DNA of 34,215 bases, from assembly GCA_005776365.1 (NCBI GenBank), contig SXPK01000069.1:1-34215 (forward strand). Direction: 5' to 3'. The notes below the pieces were generated by a model, which was given only the letters and a program-made list of their open reading frames with translations, had not been told where the DNA came from and made no database searches. This document shows, one piece after another, positions 6,584 through 15,203 of the stretch; the first letter of the stretch is position 1; each line of letters opens with the position of its first letter. The position numbers and the translations under genes were made by a program. This DNA comes from Planctomycetia bacterium (GTDB taxonomy: Bacteria; Planctomycetota; UBA1135; UBA2386).

Positions 6584-7328
6584 GGATCCAAGTTCTAGCC
6601 ACGGCGCATCTGGACGCACCCTAGTTTTCAGTCGCTCGATCGCGACGGCGCGGCGACGCGCATCGCTGCGTCGTCGTAGCCTTTGCTCGCGGCCCTGTTC
6701 GAGAAGGGCAACATCCGGCATCCTCAATCGGAGTCGCAGGCGAAGGACCAGTAGGCCCCCCACGTGCAAGCAGCCGAACTCGAACGACGCCGAGGGTAGC
6801 TTGACGGCTGCGGCATTCGGTGCGAGTGCTGGCCGCGCGAGCGCCAGCCAAACGAGTTGATGGACACGAAGCGTCTGTGCGAGCGGGCCAAACCAATTGG
6901 AGTCCGCCTCACTCCGGTGTAGGCGTCGGCCGGATCGACCGCGCCACGACTCGTGCTGGAAGCACAACTCGCGCTTGAGGATCGCCACAGGAGCAGCAGG
7001 TGTTCCGCTACGGCATGAGCAGCGGGATGCTATTGCCATGAGGTCGACCCTCGCTTCCCACTGATGTCGCACACAAGAGGCTGTGCCGAAAGGGCCGTTG
7101 ACCTGCACTTGTTGTTTCTGGCGCGTAACGCCGAAGCCGGGTTCCGTCGCAGTTCAGCATCTACGCTCGCCAAGGGCTTCGTGTCGTTCTACGCCGCGAC
7201 TCAAGAAACATGCGACACAGAATGGACGGCCTCGTTTTTGCCAAGCAGGCAGCAGCAGGTGCGGTAACCTGCCACCCTCTCATTCACGGTCGGCCAACCA
7301 ACGGCCAAAAGCTCTGGAGCACACGAAC

Positions 7329-9443
7329 ATGAAGAAACTCGCCCTTGCAGGACTGTGCTGCGCCGGCGTCCTGGCGCTGCTTACGCAGGCAGGCAACGCG
7401 CACGGCGGTCAGTACCGTGGCCCTGGTGACGTGGTGCCGCCGAATCCAGGCGGCGGTCGAGGCGCTGGCCCTGGTGGCCCTGCGACTCCCGGTCCTGGTG
7501 GACCTGCGACCCCTGGTCCCGGCGGCCCCGCTGCCCCCGGCCCTGCCGGTCCTGCGACCGGAGGCCCAGCCGGCCCTGCTGCAGGTCGCGGCCCGACCAC
7601 TGGTGGCCGTGGCATCCAACTCGAAGACGATCTGAACAAGTGGGAGTTCTGGTGGGAGTTCAATAAGGACCCCTACATCCGGCTTCGCGATTCGATCCAC
7701 TCCAACACGGCGGTGTCCGGTAGCGACGAGTTCTACCTTGGGGCCACGCGCAAGGTCGATTCGCAGGACACGATGAGCCCTTCGGACGAGGAGAAGCTCA
7801 ACGTAATCCTCCCCGCTTTGAAGAAGGCGATCGACTCCACTGAGGATCGCGACATCACGTCGTCGTGCATGGTCGCCATGGCGAAGGTCGGCCGCAATCA
7901 CAGCGAGTTCAAGCTGCGTGACGTGTTCATCCCGCGCCTGAAGCGCGGCGACCAGGAGATCCGCGAGACTGCTGCGCTGGCACTCGGAATCTCCGCGCTG
8001 CCCGATGCGGAAAACATCGACATGCTGGCTGGTCTCGTTCTGAACAACGACCTCGCCAAGCAGGCTAGCGCTGGCGAAGTGAACGACCGCACGCGCGCAT
8101 TTGCATGCTATGCGCTGGGTTTGGTAGCGAATGCAAACGCTGACGCCGCCCTCAAGCGCAAGGCATTCGACGCGCTGCGTCAAGTCGTCGACGACGACTC
8201 AAAGAGCACACGCAACACGAAGGTAGCCGCGATCAACGCCATTGGCATTCTCAACGCGGCAGGCGTGTCGAGCGCCAGTTCCCCTGCGACGGGAGAGGGC
8301 TCGGGCGGTTCCGCCGAGGGCGACAAGGCTCTCGTCGGTGACGCTCTGAAGTGCCTCGAGGCCTACTACATGAAGGCACTCGGCTCGGGCGATCAGTTGC
8401 TCCAATCGCACTGCCCGCCCGCCATCGCCAAGCTTCTGGGCAAGGACTACGCTGACGCGAAGGTAGTCGAGACCTACAGGAAGCTTTTCGCGGACGATCT
8501 TGCCGACAAGGGCAAGACCAAGCGATCCAGCAACGACATCCCGCGCGCTTGCGTGCTCGCGCTAGGACAGCTCTGCAAGCCGATCGATGACGAGAAATCA
8601 CCGGACGCCGAGTACGGCAAGTTGCTGCTCGAGACGTGGAAATCGCACCGCGACCTGCAGACCAAGTATTTCGCCATGCTGGCGCTTGGCCAGATCGGCG
8701 GAACGTGGTGCCGATCCCAGATGCTCAAGGAGTTTGATAAGGCCGGCAAGTCAATCGAGAAGCCCTGGGTCGCGCTCGCCATGGGCGTCTACGCCTACAA
8801 GAAGTATGAGGCAGACCAGGCGGCCGGTCGCACGGTGGAACTCGAGGAAGAGTTCGGTCGAACCCTGCGTGCGGCACTCGAAGACGTCAAGGATCCGAGT
8901 GCCCAGTCGGGCCTCGCTGTCGGCCTCGGCCTCTGCCGCTACGAATCAGCTGCAGACGACGTCCGCGCGCTTCTGGTCAAGAGCCGCAGCAAGGACGACC
9001 TTGCCGGCTATCTCTGCATCTCGCTGGCACTGATGGGCGACAAGCGGTCTACCACGGACATCCGCGACATCGTGGAAAAGTCGGTGCGCCGTCCAGAACT
9101 GTTGCAGCAGGCCGCGATCGCCCTGGGCAAGCTTGGCGACAAGGGCGTCGCTGACGAATTGCAGAAGCTGCTTGGCGACGGCGACACCAACCTCGCCAAG
9201 CTATCGGCTGTTGCCTCGGCGCTCGGTTTCATCGGCGATCGTCGCACGATTGAGCCGCTCAAGCGAATGCTTCAGAACGAACAGCTTACGCCGCTTTCGC
9301 GCGCCTTTGCCGCCGTCGCCCTGGGTGGAGTCGGCGACAAGGAGAAGCTGCCTTGGAATAGCAAGCTCAGCACGAACATGAACTATCGCGCTGCAGTCGA
9401 CACGCTCACGGACAAGTCCACGGGGATCCTCGATATCTTGTGA
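7329..9443 (+). CDS. Secreted HEAT-repeat protein with mature N-terminal HGGQYRGP motif and Gly/Pro-rich collagen-like linker
   Basis: ATG 7329 MKKLALAGLCCAGVLALLTQAGNA|HGGQYRGPGDVVPP; GPGGPATPGPGGPATP linker; WEFWWEFNKDP; many HEAT-type repeats (QEIRETAALALGISALPDAENIDML); C-term NYRAAVDTLTDKSTGILDIL. Confidence 0.88.
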   Translation: MKKLALAGLCCAGVLALLTQAGNAHGGQYRGPGDVVPPNPGGGRGAGPGGPATPGPGGPATPGPGGPAAPGPAGPATGGPAGPAAGRGPTTGGRGIQLEDDLNKWEFWWEFNKDPYIRLRDSIHSNTAVSGSDEFYLGATRKVDSQDTMSPSDEEKLNVILPALKKAIDSTEDRDITSSCMVAMAKVGRNHSEFKLRDVFIPRLKRGDQEIRETAALALGISALPDAENIDMLAGLVLNNDLAKQASAGEVNDRTRAFACYALGLVANANADAALKRKAFDALRQVVDDDSKSTRNTKVAAINAIGILNAAGVSSASSPATGEGSGGSAEGDKALVGDALKCLEAYYMKALGSGDQLLQSHCPPAIAKLLGKDYADAKVVETYRKLFADDLADKGKTKRSSNDIPRACVLALGQLCKPIDDEKSPDAEYGKLLLETWKSHRDLQTKYFAMLALGQIGGTWCRSQMLKEFDKAGKSIEKPWVALAMGVYAYKKYEADQAAGRTVELEEEFGRTLRAALEDVKDPSAQSGLAVGLGLCRYESAADDVRALLVKSRSKDDLAGYLCISLALMGDKRSTTDIRDIVEKSVRRPELLQQAAIALGKLGDKGVADELQKLLGDGDTNLAKLSAVASALGFIGDRRTIEPLKRMLQNEQLTPLSRAFAAVALGGVGDKEKLPWNSKLSTNMNYRAAVDTLTDKSTGILDIL
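7467..7585 (+). repeat. Gly/Pro-rich low-complexity coding repeat (about 24-nt period, GPGGPATP-like units)
   Basis: In-frame ggccctggtggccctgcgactcccggtcctggtggacctgcgacccctggtcccggcggcccc..., translating GPGGPATPGPGGPATPGPGGPAAPGPAGPATGGPAGPAAG. Confidence 0.8.
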
Positions 9444-9473
9444 GGCTCGACCTCGCTCCTTGAGCAATTCACT

Positions 9474-9509
9474 CGACGGGCAGCCAATGTGGCTGCCCGT
9501 CGTCGTTTT
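9474..9509 (+). terminator. Rho-independent terminator-like hairpin between the two HEAT paralogs
   Basis: CGACGGGCAGCC-AATGT-GGCTGCCCGTCG (12-bp perfect stem, 5-nt loop, 9474-9502) followed by TCGTTTT. Confidence 0.8.
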
Positions 9510-9737
9510 CACCTGATGTTGAGTTCTCTCGGTTTGGAACAGAGGTTGCCAACCTCAGCCATGGAATCACGCACGCCGTCGGCAGACTGCAGGAGGGCGA
9601 CCCCGCCAGTGCATTCACAACTCCTCGGCGATTGCGTCCTGCATCGAGCCCCGCTGGTGGCAGGGCGAGTTCTCTGCAGAAGCCGCGGAATCCACAGACT
9701 CCGCTGCAAGCGCTCGATTCTTCCACGTTCCTCAGTG

Positions 9738-11798
9738 ATGGGCCTCGCTTGCCGACTTGCTGTTCGACCACTTCTGGCTTCGCTGGTGCTGGCCATCCCA
9801 TGCTTCGCACACGGTGGCCAATACCGGGGACCGAGCAATATTGGGTCGCCAAACACTCAGGCAGCAACTGGTGGGAGTAACAGTGGGACAACCTCGGGAT
9901 CGAGTGGAACCTCGCCTGCGGGTTACGGATCCTCCACTTCGGGTGCATCGGCACCCGGCCTGCTCCTAGGTGGCGGCGTTGGCGCAGCGGGCCGACAAGG
10001 AAGCCGTGGTTACGTGATCGACGCCGATCTCTCCAGTTGGGAGTTCTGGTGGGAGTTCCAGAAGGACCCACTGCTTCGGCTTCGCGATGGCATGGAGTTG
10101 CGAAGGGCACTCAACGCAACCGACGCGCTGCTTGGTGGCAGAGGAGCATTGGCGAGGACGCTCGAGCCACCAAGTGCAACGACGGTTCAGACGGTGGTAG
10201 TCCCGGGATTGGTGAAGGCTTTCCGAGAGGCAACGGATCGCGACACCATCAGCTCGACCATGGTCGCGCTCGCCAAGATCGGGCAAGACCCTGCTGGGGC
10301 TCGCCTACATGACCTGTTCTCTCAGAAGCTGTCGAGCCACGATCAGGAGCTCCGAGAGACGGCGGCACTCTGCATTGGCATCTCGCGTCAGTGCCGACGC
10401 GAAGACATTGCCTTGCTTGTTGCACTCTGTGTCGATGCGCCCCTCGCGCACCGGGAGGCGGCACGGACTGAAATCGACCAACGGACTCGCGCCTTTGCTT
10501 GTTACGGGCTCGGACTCTGCCTACCTCGCATTGAACCACATCGCCGACACGCCCCGGTTCGCGCGCTGCAATCACTACTCGAGGCAAGTGATGCCACGAG
10601 CACACAACGCAATGTGACGGTCGCCGCCATCGCGGCACTCGGACAACTTCCGCGCGACACCTCAGCGGCGGGCCGCAGCCTCCTAGACATCGCCGCCAAC
10701 AGCCTGCTGGCATTCTACGACAAGGAACTCGGACCCGGCGCGCAGATTGTCCAGGCCCACTGTCCTATCGCCATTGCAAACCTGATTGGACCGGATCACG
10801 CGCTGAGCGACGTCTGCAGGTCGGAGTTTGCAGGATGCCTCGCAGCGGAGCGCACGTCAGATTCAGGCCCCACATCCAAGGCCAACGACCACGTTGGGCA
10901 ATCTTGTGCAAGTGCGTTGGGCCTGCTCTGCCGCCCATGGGAGAACGAAACCTCACCAGACCACGACATCTGTCTAAGGCTGCTACGCACCTGCCGCGAG
11001 GCCCGCGACCACCAAACGCGCTATTTTGCGGCACTAAGCTTGGGCCGAATTGGTGGGGAGAAGGCGCGAACAGCACTGCTCGACGAAATGCGTGAGGCCA
11101 GTCGTGCGATCGAGCAGCCCTGGATCATGCTGGCGCTCGGCTCCATGATCGCTGCCCGAGCCGACGCTTCTCTCGTTGGATTGGTGACGCCTGACGACGA
11201 CCGCGAGGTTTGTGAATCTCTGCTGCGAACCCTAGACGCAGCCAAGAGCCCACATGCGATTGGCGCAGCAGCGATCGCCTTGGGCCTTTGTCGCGCACCA
11301 GGAAGTGGTGACCGTCTGCGCGCCGCGCTGTCTGAATACGGAGATCGAGAGGACGTCGGTGGGCAGATCGCAATCGGTCTCGCCTTGCTTGAGGAGCGCA
11401 GTGCCGCCCCCCACATTCGAGAGCTCCTCGCGGATTCGGTCCGCAAACCGCAGTTGCTGGTTCGATTTGCCATGTCACTCGGCAAACTCGGCGACGCGGA
11501 AGCAGTGGCGCAACTGACTTCCATGCTGACCGATGCCGAAGGCGGGCTTGCGCGCCTTTCCGCGGTCGCGTCTGGCCTAGGTCAGCTCGGGGACCGTCGC
11601 TGCGTCGATCCGCTCGTTCAGATGCTGCAAAACAAGACGCTGACGCCATTGACGCGCGCCTTTGCTGCTGTTGCACTCGGTGGCGTCTGCGATCCGGAGC
11701 CAATGCCTTGGAACGCACGCTACGCGGCGACTCTCAATTACCGTGCGGCTGTCGAAACCTTGACCGATGGCGCTTCGGGGATCCTCGACATCCTATAG
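9738..11798 (+). CDS. Secreted HEAT-repeat protein, paralog of 7329-9443, with Ser/Gly/Thr-rich linker
   Basis: ATG 9738 MGLACRLAVRPLLASLVLAIPCFA|HGGQYRGPSNIGSP...; LSSWEFWWEFQKDPLLRLRD; C-term LTPLTRAFAAVALGGVCDPEPMPWNARYAATLNYRAAVETLTDGASGILDIL, collinear with the upstream paralog. Confidence 0.88.
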   Translation: MGLACRLAVRPLLASLVLAIPCFAHGGQYRGPSNIGSPNTQAATGGSNSGTTSGSSGTSPAGYGSSTSGASAPGLLLGGGVGAAGRQGSRGYVIDADLSSWEFWWEFQKDPLLRLRDGMELRRALNATDALLGGRGALARTLEPPSATTVQTVVVPGLVKAFREATDRDTISSTMVALAKIGQDPAGARLHDLFSQKLSSHDQELRETAALCIGISRQCRREDIALLVALCVDAPLAHREAARTEIDQRTRAFACYGLGLCLPRIEPHRRHAPVRALQSLLEASDATSTQRNVTVAAIAALGQLPRDTSAAGRSLLDIAANSLLAFYDKELGPGAQIVQAHCPIAIANLIGPDHALSDVCRSEFAGCLAAERTSDSGPTSKANDHVGQSCASALGLLCRPWENETSPDHDICLRLLRTCREARDHQTRYFAALSLGRIGGEKARTALLDEMREASRAIEQPWIMLALGSMIAARADASLVGLVTPDDDREVCESLLRTLDAAKSPHAIGAAAIALGLCRAPGSGDRLRAALSEYGDREDVGGQIAIGLALLEERSAAPHIRELLADSVRKPQLLVRFAMSLGKLGDAEAVAQLTSMLTDAEGGLARLSAVASGLGQLGDRRCVDPLVQMLQNKTLTPLTRAFAAVALGGVCDPEPMPWNARYAATLNYRAAVETLTDGASGILDIL

Positions 11799-13843
11799 GC
11801 CGGAAGGAGCGACAATGCAGCCGCCACCGCCAGCGCTCCGGCGAGCCAGCCATTCCTGCTTGCGACCGCCCGTGCACGCAGGATCGGTTCCAATTGTGCG
11901 GCCAATGACTCGGACTGGGCTGTGAGTTGGGACTTCATCGCAGGATCCGGGGCGAACTCCAGTCCTGCCTGCGTTGCCGACAGCGCGGCTGCTATGCGGC
12001 GCTGCGACCACAACGCGGCACCAGTCAGGTAACAGAGGTAGGCACTTCCGTGCTGGCTTCGAGCGGCGGCGCGGATCGCACCTTCGAAGTCTTTCTTGTC
12101 GTAGGCGGCAAAAGCCGCGGCCTCAGACCACTCGACACTCTGTTCGCCAACAAAACGCAGCGACGCGATTGGCTCCCATGCACTCAAGTAGGACCGATCG
12201 AGCAACAGATCGAGTCTCGGTCGATCGTCCTCAAGCACAGGGGAGGATGCGAGGTCCGGCAGATCCTGGGCATGCCGCCACGGTCCTGCGGCACCCTCCT
12301 GTTGAACCTTCTCCCAAATGGCAGCGTCGGCGGCACAGAGCTGCCATGAACCTACAGTCGCCAGGCTAGCAGTAGACAAGTCCGCATCTCGACGTCCAAC
12401 GAGCAGGATGTTTCGGGAATTGGGCACGCAGAATGCCGCCACGTCCGTGAACACCTCCCGCATCGTCCGTCCGATCGCACAGAGTACAGGGTCTGCGAAC
12501 CCCAGTCCGCCGACGTTGCAAGCGATCACGCCTCTCGGCTTCATGCGTTCTCTGGCCGCGGTGAAGAACTCGCGGCTCGCAAGATGCGCTGGGATGTAGA
12601 CCTGGTGTCGATAAGCATCCACATGAATGCAATGCCACGATTCTCTGGCGCGCGCGACGAACACGCGGCCGTCGAGACCTGTGACGATGGTCCCCGCGAT
12701 GTCCACCTGTGGAAACCACTGCTTGCCCAGTCGGGCGACTTCGGGGTCGAGTTCGACGCCGTCAACTACCGCCTTCGGGTATAGCGCGCCGTAGAGCCTC
12801 CTGAAGGTCCCCGCAGCATCGCCGATCGACAGCGCTCGGAGGCCGTCTGGAGGGACACCATCGCCAGCTAGCAGCGGAACGAGCGCATGGTAATCATAGT
12901 ATGAGCTCGCCTTCGCGGAGGGATTGGAGTCGCTCGTGAACACTCGCCCTGCTACAGCGACCGACTGATAGCTGTCGAGCCCTTCATTGATCTTCAGCTC
13001 CGTTCGGGAGGCCTGTCCGGCAGATTCCGGTGACCTCACAACGCGCAGGTACTGCAGCGTCGATTCATGGGCAGCAAGTAGTTGCTGGCCTTCTGGGGCA
13101 CTGCGCAAGGGCGAGAAGGTCGTCAGCGACAGCATGATGCACGCCGCTACGGTCGCCGCGGCAACAGCCTGGGGACGGACCAGCAGCCAAGCCACACCGA
13201 GCAGTGCAGCGGCAATCCAGATGGCCGCGCGGCAGCCGTAGGTCGGCACCAACCAATGCGTCGCAGCAAACGTGCCAACGAGGCTGCCGAGAGTGCCTGC
13301 GGCGGAGACCATGCCCGCCGCGCGACCCAGCCCTGTGCCAGTTCGGGCTGCGCCAACCACAAGACACGGTGAGACTGCGCCGATAAGCCAGAGCGCAGGG
13401 CCAAACAGACCCAACGTCGCCGCCAGTGAGCCTCGCACGAGAGCAGGCATCGCCGCTTCGAGCGGAAGATCCTGCGGCAAAAGCCAGTCGCACAACAAAG
13501 GCCCCAGTATCGGAGCCAGTGACAACGTCAGAGCGGCCATTGCCAGCAGTGGGACCGCGCCACGAGCGCCTCGATGCTCCGCAAGTCGTCCTCCAAACCA
13601 AGCTCCTGCTGCCAACGCAAACAGGATGACCCCAATCACGTTGGTCCATACGTAGGCGGAATCACCAAAGAAAGGCGCGAGCATCCGCACGGCGCTCAAT
13701 TCAACCGCCATGCAAGCACAACCGGCAAAGCCTGCCGCCCAAGCGGCTCGCCAGGGAACTAAGCCCGCCGCACTTGCTTCACTTCTGGGCACCGGCCTCG
13801 TCCGCCTTCTTCTCAGTCTTTGGCACGTTGACGCGGAACTCAA
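11738..13843 (-). CDS. Fused membrane (MFS-like) + spermidine synthase-like protein with C-terminal TPR-like helices and terminal TM segment
   Basis: AAGFAGCACMAVELSAVRMLAPFFGDSAYVWTNVIGVILFALAAGAWFGGRLAE N-term; 'LSIGDAAGTFRRLYG...VDGVELDPEVARLGKQWF' and 'DAYRHQVYIPAHLASREFF' spermidine synthase-like. Start uncertain: GTG at 13792 is an alternative overlapping the upstream gene less. Confidence 0.82.
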   Translation of the reverse strand: MSSASTCQRLRRRRTRPVPRSEASAAGLVPWRAAWAAGFAGCACMAVELSAVRMLAPFFGDSAYVWTNVIGVILFALAAGAWFGGRLAEHRGARGAVPLLAMAALTLSLAPILGPLLCDWLLPQDLPLEAAMPALVRGSLAATLGLFGPALWLIGAVSPCLVVGAARTGTGLGRAAGMVSAAGTLGSLVGTFAATHWLVPTYGCRAAIWIAAALLGVAWLLVRPQAVAAATVAACIMLSLTTFSPLRSAPEGQQLLAAHESTLQYLRVVRSPESAGQASRTELKINEGLDSYQSVAVAGRVFTSDSNPSAKASSYYDYHALVPLLAGDGVPPDGLRALSIGDAAGTFRRLYGALYPKAVVDGVELDPEVARLGKQWFPQVDIAGTIVTGLDGRVFVARARESWHCIHVDAYRHQVYIPAHLASREFFTAARERMKPRGVIACNVGGLGFADPVLCAIGRTMREVFTDVAAFCVPNSRNILLVGRRDADLSTASLATVGSWQLCAADAAIWEKVQQEGAAGPWRHAQDLPDLASSPVLEDDRPRLDLLLDRSYLSAWEPIASLRFVGEQSVEWSEAAAFAAYDKKDFEGAIRAAARSQHGSAYLCYLTGAALWSQRRIAAALSATQAGLEFAPDPAMKSQLTAQSESLAAQLEPILRARAVASRNGWLAGALAVAAALSLLPAYRMSRIPEAPSVKVSTAAR

Positions 13844-15203
13844 CCGGGAACAAGAAGCCGCTGTCGTTCTTCCGCAGCATTCGTTTCAGCAGGCTGTTGA
13901 AGTCACGGTTTCGCTTTCCTTCTTCCCACGCCTTGTCGTTGACCACGAGCGAGACCGGCTTGTCGAGGTCCACCAGCGCATCGTTGAGTGACAGGGTCAA
14001 TGAGTCCACGCCGACAGCGGTGATCTTGATCCTGTTCTGTGCCCGATCCGCTTCTACGACGACGCGTGGCTTGGCGCCCTCAGGAGCAGTCTGGACCGAG
14101 GACATGTCGAGGATGGAGACCCAGTAGGCCTGTTTGAACCTGTCCTCGAGCGGCTCGATCACGATCTTGGCGCGGTTGACGATGCGTTTGCATCCGGCCA
14201 TCCACTTTTCGATCTCCGGCGCAGCTGCCGCGAAAGGATAGGCGTCTGTTGCCGACAGTATGGTGCAAGTCGCGCCCTCAACCTGGTCGAGTTTCGCCTT
14301 GAACGCAGCGCAGGCCTCGGCCGTCTCGCCAGTCGAGATCAACAGCACATTCACACCGCCGAGGCTCCCCAACCGCAGTGCATCCGCAGAAGGAGGAGAA
14401 CGCAGTACCAGTCCGGTGAAGACGTCCGGGAAGTGACATGCAAGCCTGACGACGAAACCACTGGCGCCCCTGCCGGCGTCCACGAAGCGACGCGATCTCT
14501 CGACGTTGTAGCCGCGCTGCGTCTCGCCGAACGATGAGAAGATTTCCTGGATGCGCTGTATCTCCTGTGCCTCGGCGCCGTCCTTGGAATAGTCAGGCAA
14601 CGCGTCGAGGTCGACAGTCTTGGACACCACGGGAATGTGGACGACCGAATCGCTCACCAGCGCGGACTTGTCGGTCCAAGTCGTGTCGAACCACTTCTTG
14701 CCATCCGTCCACTCCTGCTTGTCGTCGAGGCCAGGCACCAGCAGCAAGGCGCGCGTCGGAGACTCCGCCTTGTAGGCCTTGGGCACCGCAATCCAGTAGG
14801 CGGGGGTCGGGTCCTTCGCTTCGACCTTGCGCAGAGTCAGCGCTTGCTTGCGCTCGTAGGGCAGCGCGTTGGCGAAGATCACGTCGAGGTCGGCGGTCGC
14901 CTTCAGCAGATCGCCATGCTTTTCGCACTGCCGCTTCCAGTCCGTCCAGAACGCGTCTTTGGCTGTGTAGTAGGCCTTCTCTGCCTTCTCGCGCGCTTTT
15001 CCCGTCGTGGCGGGATCGTCGTAGGCGATCTGCGACTCGACCATCTTCGAAAGCTTTGCCTGCAACGACTTCTGGTCGGCTGGCGCGAGTTTCGTCACGG
15101 GGTCCTGTGGCGCCACGGAGACGTTGGCATCTCCCCAAGGCGAAAGACCAAGACAGGCAAACGTAATCGTCGCAAACAGAGGCATCAGCAACTCCGGGAT
15201 CAA
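13779..15203 (-). CDS. Secreted alpha/beta hydrolase-fold-like protein of unknown function
   Basis: Signal peptide, 'AYWIAVPKAYKAESPTRALLLVPGLDDKQEW' and 'VERSRRFVDAGRGASGFVVRLACHFPDVFTGLVLRSPP' resemble a hydrolase core. Confidence 0.6.
   Translation of the reverse strand: MIPELLMPLFATITFACLGLSPWGDANVSVAPQDPVTKLAPADQKSLQAKLSKMVESQIAYDDPATTGKAREKAEKAYYTAKDAFWTDWKRQCEKHGDLLKATADLDVIFANALPYERKQALTLRKVEAKDPTPAYWIAVPKAYKAESPTRALLLVPGLDDKQEWTDGKKWFDTTWTDKSALVSDSVVHIPVVSKTVDLDALPDYSKDGAEAQEIQRIQEIFSSFGETQRGYNVERSRRFVDAGRGASGFVVRLACHFPDVFTGLVLRSPPSADALRLGSLGGVNVLLISTGETAEACAAFKAKLDQVEGATCTILSATDAYPFAAAAPEIEKWMAGCKRIVNRAKIVIEPLEDRFKQAYWVSILDMSSVQTAPEGAKPRVVVEADRAQNRIKITAVGVDSLTLSLNDALVDLDKPVSLVVNDKAWEEGKRNRDFNSLLKRMLRKNDSGFLFPVEFRVNVPKTEKKADEAGAQK

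Follow-up and report, generated by a model that had tools for sequence, protein, structure and literature searches.

A short HGGxYRGP peptide at the predicted mature N terminus of exported planctomycete proteins resembles a docking or sorting tag

Tags of exported proteins that were found by sequence alone, PEP-CTERM among them, have led to whole sorting systems. LPXTG/sortase and PEP-CTERM/exosortase systems mark many exported proteins, whose folds are unrelated and which include VIT-vWA proteins, with a small end tag, and that tag is C-terminal, with a membrane helix and a basic tail. In Bacteroidetes, unrelated exported lipoproteins bear a short acidic N-terminal element as an address label, the lipoprotein export signal (LES; K-(D/E)2 or Q-A-(D/E)2; Lauber et al. 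2016, PMC5080379). In lytic polysaccharide monooxygenases (LPMO), CopC and the "signal-strapped" N-terminal-His metalloproteins (PMC12537917), signal peptidase frees a His at mature position 1. Here we describe an eight-residue peptide, HGG-x-[Tyr/Phe]-Arg-Gly-Pro (the tag; exact form HGGxYRGP), carried by the products of two tandem genes, HEAT1 and HEAT2, in a 34,215-nucleotide stretch of planctomycete DNA (the window; contig SXPK01000069.1, analyzed in full) from a 3.66-Mb, 65% complete assembly. Judged from sequence, the tag can be likened to the peptides that address or dock exported proteins, and it lacks the defining features of the LES, sortase and exosortase systems.

Like LES, the tag is a short N-terminal element common to unrelated exported proteins; unlike LES, it is an unrelated motif with His at +1, it can be internal, and none of the 154 distinct tagged proteins has a lipobox, so that a lipoprotein signal was rejected. 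Unlike the LPXTG and PEP-CTERM tags, it is mostly N-terminal. With LPMO and CopC it shares the predicted release of a mature His1, whereas the main carriers have an alpha-solenoid fold. That fold class is the one of importin-alpha and PP2A-A (Foldseek E about 1e-5), but TM-scores of 0.2-0.4 and 11-17% identity leave the repeat architecture alone in common, and the carriers here are exported.

HEAT1 (7329..9443, plus strand, ATG at 7329) encodes a secreted HEAT-repeat protein of 704 aa (PF13646 E 4e-20), and HEAT2 (9738..11798, plus strand, ATG at 9738, GTG at 9735 possible) a tandem paralog of 686 aa; the listed open reading frame (ORF) starts at 7083 and 9489 are mechanical, and the ATG starts give ordinary 24-residue signal peptides. 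The predicted signal peptide of HEAT1, MKKLALAGLCCAGVLALLTQAGNA (7329..7400), assigned from its sequence and from the positional statistics of the 154 relatives, ends GNA and is followed by HGGQYRGP (7401..7424) as the predicted mature N terminus. That of HEAT2, MGLACRLAVRPLLASLVLAIPCFA (9738..9809), assigned from sequence, ends CFA and is followed by the same eight residues (9810..9833). Behind the tag come a disordered Gly/Pro-rich linker in HEAT1 (7425..7640) and a Gly/Ser-rich linker in HEAT2 (9834..10037), then a WEFWWEFNK helix with the HEAT solenoid (7641..9440) and a WEFWWEFQK helix with its solenoid (10038..11795). The two proteins are 42-43% identical and their linkers are barely alignable from the tag to WEFWWEF, in agreement with a sequence-only reading of the window, which had noted the shared HGGQYRGP behind the signal peptides and the divergence that follows. 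Six of the eight tag codons differ between the two genes, every difference being synonymous, so the identical peptides are not the product of recent gene conversion. A third paralog with the same HGGQYRGP tag lies on another contig of the assembly.

PF13646 scores 72 bits in both proteins (cut-off 27.7) and PF03130 matches too; Pfam and NCBIfam gave HEAT-type matches and nothing else. The AlphaFold2 (AF2) model of HEAT1 has a mean predicted local distance difference test score (pLDDT) of 81, with a confident alpha-solenoid of helices 105-681, while the tag and linker are disordered (pLDDT <50 for residues 17-99). Disorder was modeled for HEAT1 alone and judged in other tagged proteins from their low-complexity sequence. 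At the opposite end, both proteins finish in GILDIL (9423..9440 in HEAT1, 11778..11795 in HEAT2), and the family C terminus, [G/E][I/L/V]LxIL-COOH, has Leu at -1 in 73, Ile at -2 in 71 and Leu at -4 in 74 of 80 relatives. This C terminus, where model confidence is lower despite the sequence conservation, is possibly a second terminal recognition element.

The position of the tag is its most constant property. Of the 154 distinct tagged proteins, 116 have Ala and the other 38 have Gly at position -1, whereas Ala and Gly together make up 6% at -2, 44% at -3 and 7% at -4. This pattern is the signature of a signal peptidase I cut directly before His, a cleavage that, like export and binding throughout this work, is a prediction. 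It agrees with the sequence-only reading, which had placed a short invariant element at the mature N terminus, and extends it to essentially the whole family. The tag itself has Tyr in 147, Arg in 139 and Gly7 in 149 of the 154, with His at +1, Tyr/Phe/Trp at +5 and Pro at +8 throughout; these figures are inflated, because the family was gathered partly with the motif as bait. The set was picked on a loose pattern in which HGG, the aromatic class at +5 and Pro8 are fixed by construction, while Ala/Gly at -1, Arg and Gly7 are not fully fixed; Tyr, Arg and Gly were not demanded singly, and the exact motif brought in most loci. The tag stands 28 to 100 residues (median 78) ahead of the domain, on a segment of 27% Gly and 23% Pro.

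A fairer picture of variation comes from a profile of the HEAT family, which found members in 61 of 61 relatives. From these, 20 were fetched for want of a listed exact tag; one turned out to be exact, and 17 of the other 19 retain HGGx[YF] behind a signal peptide (HGGTYKGP, HGGQFRGP, HGGQYLGP and others). The remaining two have VGGRYLGP and no recognizable tag, respectively. The tag has also been lost from a small number of diverged tandem copies, such as those of Pla86 (CP036296), where an array holds four HEAT-family ORFs and two downstream copies have no recognizable tag.

The exact motif occurs in 84 of the 101 genomes of the window's order, where the same pattern reversed, our background control, has no match, and in 83 of 393 genomes of the phylum, where the reversed pattern has six. 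A looser pattern, [A/G]HGGx[YF]xxP, has 114 matches in 22 genomes of other classes of the phylum against 15 reversed, and it uncovers many more HEAT proteins, whose tags include HGGAYQPP and HGGRFQGP. These counts reject a chance origin. Most of the sequences come from metagenome bins. Among the matches listed for named GTDB contigs, copies behind a signal peptide fall mainly in records labeled Planctomycetota, including the complete genomes of Poly30 (CP036434) and Pla86 and the lake clade CL500-15; others lie in unassigned bins and under a few labels, among them Singulisphaera, Phycisphaerales and Kuenenia. The motif-bearing proteins listed from other phyla were rejected as chance matches because they have neither a signal peptide nor a HEAT domain, and genuine copies thus appear, among the matches listed, to be confined to a subset of Planctomycetota. 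In the literature searched we found no mention of the motif, and no Pfam or NCBIfam model covers the N-terminal tag region of the proteins scanned.

Beyond the window the tag is not confined to the HEAT family. The sequence-only reading, from which this could not be seen, had the feature correct and its meaning half correct. A family of Cys-containing secreted VIT-like proteins of about 300 aa (L076, L084, L086) has a signal peptide and then HGG[TV]YRGP. The first 50 residues of their profile match HEAT proteins (E down to 1e-13), and its domain part matches genuine VIT-vWA proteins in their VIT stretch (E 1e-6 to 1e-9); we relate them to VIT on the latter match, their own Pfam VIT score being sub-threshold (13.5 vs 26.5 bits) and no Pfam match standing above cut-off. 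Cousins of these proteins (family f20) keep A|HGG and mostly not the rest. In the standalone VIT-like family (L076, L084, L086, L269-L272, L392), a CxCx4CxxC-type segment lies just after the tag. In the VIT-vWA proteins L365 and L366 the motif is internal, HGGAFRGPNGG[IV]PP in a Gly-rich linker that follows the vWA domain; in the membrane-anchored vWA/YfbK_C protein L368 it is HGGNYRGPEGEVPPDSREPSDP, between the membrane helix and the vWA domain. A second secreted HEAT family (L367 and L369, 36% identical) has HGGSYRGP in a C-terminal low-complexity tail, and the two tails align with each other at HGGSYRGP alone. By sequence, then, the motif spans at least five architectures. A free N-terminal His, which the sequence-only reading had proposed, is predicted for the main family but is not a general requirement, since the internal cases would have one only if they were cut; four of the five internal copies are preceded by Gly or Ala.

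Within single genomes the tag takes local forms. HGGxFRGPNGG[VI]PP is common to HEAT and VIT-vWA proteins in each of two genomes (G112, G157), and EVPPDSRxPxDP to the HEAT, VIT-like and vWA proteins of G126/G439. Same-genome pairs of tagged proteins are identical at 19-22 of 26 residues, and the third codon positions at identical residues match in only 8/19, 9/22 and 8/20 cases in three of the four pairs, and in 14/19 in the G112 pair. With third positions largely scrambled beneath a conserved peptide, these codon comparisons show that selection acts on the peptide and preserves it, and in at least three cases recent gene conversion or fresh copying of a DNA module is rejected.

The same peptide thus occurs on unrelated domains, in disordered segments and under selection, as expected of a linear motif, and because it is common to unrelated exported proteins, mostly at the signal cut site, it is probably a docking or sorting label. 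We therefore lean, with some reserve, toward a portable short linear motif by which extracytoplasmic proteins would be docked or sorted. The evidence best favors this among the options of the sequence-only reading, which had named a sorting or assembly tag beside metal binding and processing. From the motif, its position, its spread and the selection on it, we infer the following route through cleavage, secretion and docking to a reader. The Sec signal peptide of HEAT1 and HEAT2 would be cut just before His, so that the motif would form the free end of a disordered Gly/Pro tether of about 70 residues that bears the HEAT solenoid. One partner shared by the tagged proteins, located in the periplasm or on the cell surface, would capture this tip, and the capture would place, retain or assemble them. 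Other lineages would have grafted the motif onto VIT and vWA proteins, at times within a linker. ARM/HEAT-class solenoids bind extended peptides and HEAT solenoids of this family occur in every searched genome of the order, so the first candidate for the reader would be a putative peptide-binding groove of these solenoids themselves.

Several observations weigh against a docking label. The AF2 model of HEAT1 does not show the tag docked on its own solenoid. The internal copies are few (five proteins) and none was seen in the window's own order, which shows the tag on the HEAT architecture only. Finally, variation is lowest at His1, the two Gly and the aromatic position, as a metal site would also predict. 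A more specific form of the idea, in which the exported HEAT solenoids would hold one another and the VIT/vWA proteins by their HGGx[YF]RGP tips in a tethered surface meshwork, is an outside chance; at the same low odds it would be an undescribed, lineage-wide assembly system of Planctomycetota, with a class-specific dialect of tag and groove.

The main rival, improbable in our view though the best placed of the alternatives, is a metal site for Cu or Ni, in which the freed amine and imidazole of His1, the Gly-Gly amides and Tyr5 would chelate the ion at a flexible tip that could buffer, deliver or sense the metal. It would account for His1, Gly2, Gly3 and the aromatic at position 5 being least variable when the rest drifts, and chelation of transition metals by a free N-terminal His does not depend on the fold (PMC12537917). 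It leaves unexplained the Arg-Gly-Pro and the conserved residues behind it, as well as the internal copies, which have no free N terminus unless processed; nor were metal genes recognized among the neighbors, which are sdhCAB and spermidine-synthase-like and hydrolase-like genes. Among 80 HEAT relatives no other His column exceeds 59%, and no Cys is strongly conserved. A histidine brace depends on a second His (PMC7529816), and a copper site of the LPMO or CopC kind, a natural first guess that the sequence-only reading had made, is rejected on the missing second His and the internal copies.

Slightly less probable still is processing or covalent attachment, in which a dedicated enzyme would read HGGxYRGP and trim, modify or couple the protein through its new N terminus, the internal copies likewise being cut just before His. 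The Gly or Ala ahead of most internal copies fits this, as do the VIT-vWA carriers, a class on which sorting transpeptidases typically act; TIGR03788 (sortase target) is matched by L365 at E 7e-82, below the model cut-off, and the XrtN/PEP-CTERM VIT models more weakly. Against it, sortase (PF04203) was found in 0 of 41 relatives, with control genomes positive, and sortase substrates were rejected. Exosortase (PF09721) is present in 34 of the 41 and missing from seven that carry the tag, and the HEAT proteins end in [GE]xLxIL, GILDIL in the window, with no C-terminal membrane anchor; PEP-CTERM/exosortase substrates were rejected on both grounds. The window's own genome has an exosortase (PF09721) on another contig (C119, 8834-9586).

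A structural cap, with the N-terminal residues folded back on the HEAT solenoid and conserved for stability only, would suit a tag that almost all HEAT paralogs of the family carry, but we consider it quite unlikely: the segment is disordered in the HEAT1 model, the tag stands 28 to 100 residues ahead of the domain in the main family, and the motif is shared by VIT and vWA proteins and, at the other terminus, by a different HEAT family. Mere inheritance of a functionless peptide from the common ancestor of the HEAT family, which the tandem paralogy of the window pair might suggest, is very improbable and already contradicted by the codon comparison, since the peptide is kept over scrambled synonymous sites while the adjoining linkers are free to change and unrelated domains bear the tag.

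Downstream of HEAT2, a convergent neighbor on the minus strand (11738..13843) encodes a fused MFS/spermidine-synthase-like membrane protein (its ortholog L099 matches NF037959 at E 1e-50), and next to it on the same strand (13779..15203) is the gene of a secreted protein with no Pfam or NCBIfam match that is alpha/beta-hydrolase-like by eye. This pair (11738-15203) is a conserved neighbor of HEAT genes: among the HEAT loci that we compared, 18 and 19 hold homologs of its two members. In related genomes, the succinate dehydrogenase genes sdhC-A-B stand immediately upstream of tagged HEAT genes or close by (L103, L157, L185, L182, L206; also nearby in L161, L133, L163), a linkage not seen in the window.

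The tag occurs in nearly all genomes of the order, and because these include the cultured strains Poly30 and Pla86, bench work is feasible. The eight-residue peptide is an immediate bait for finding a reader, for which HGGQYRGPGDVVPP could serve as the bait form. Poly30 is a member of the "Saltatorellus" clade. That clade has been described as shapeshifting (PMC11481906), and a link between the tag and this behavior is speculation. With the first guess of a copper site corrected, the tag would offer a handle on the organization of the unusual envelopes of planctomycetes.

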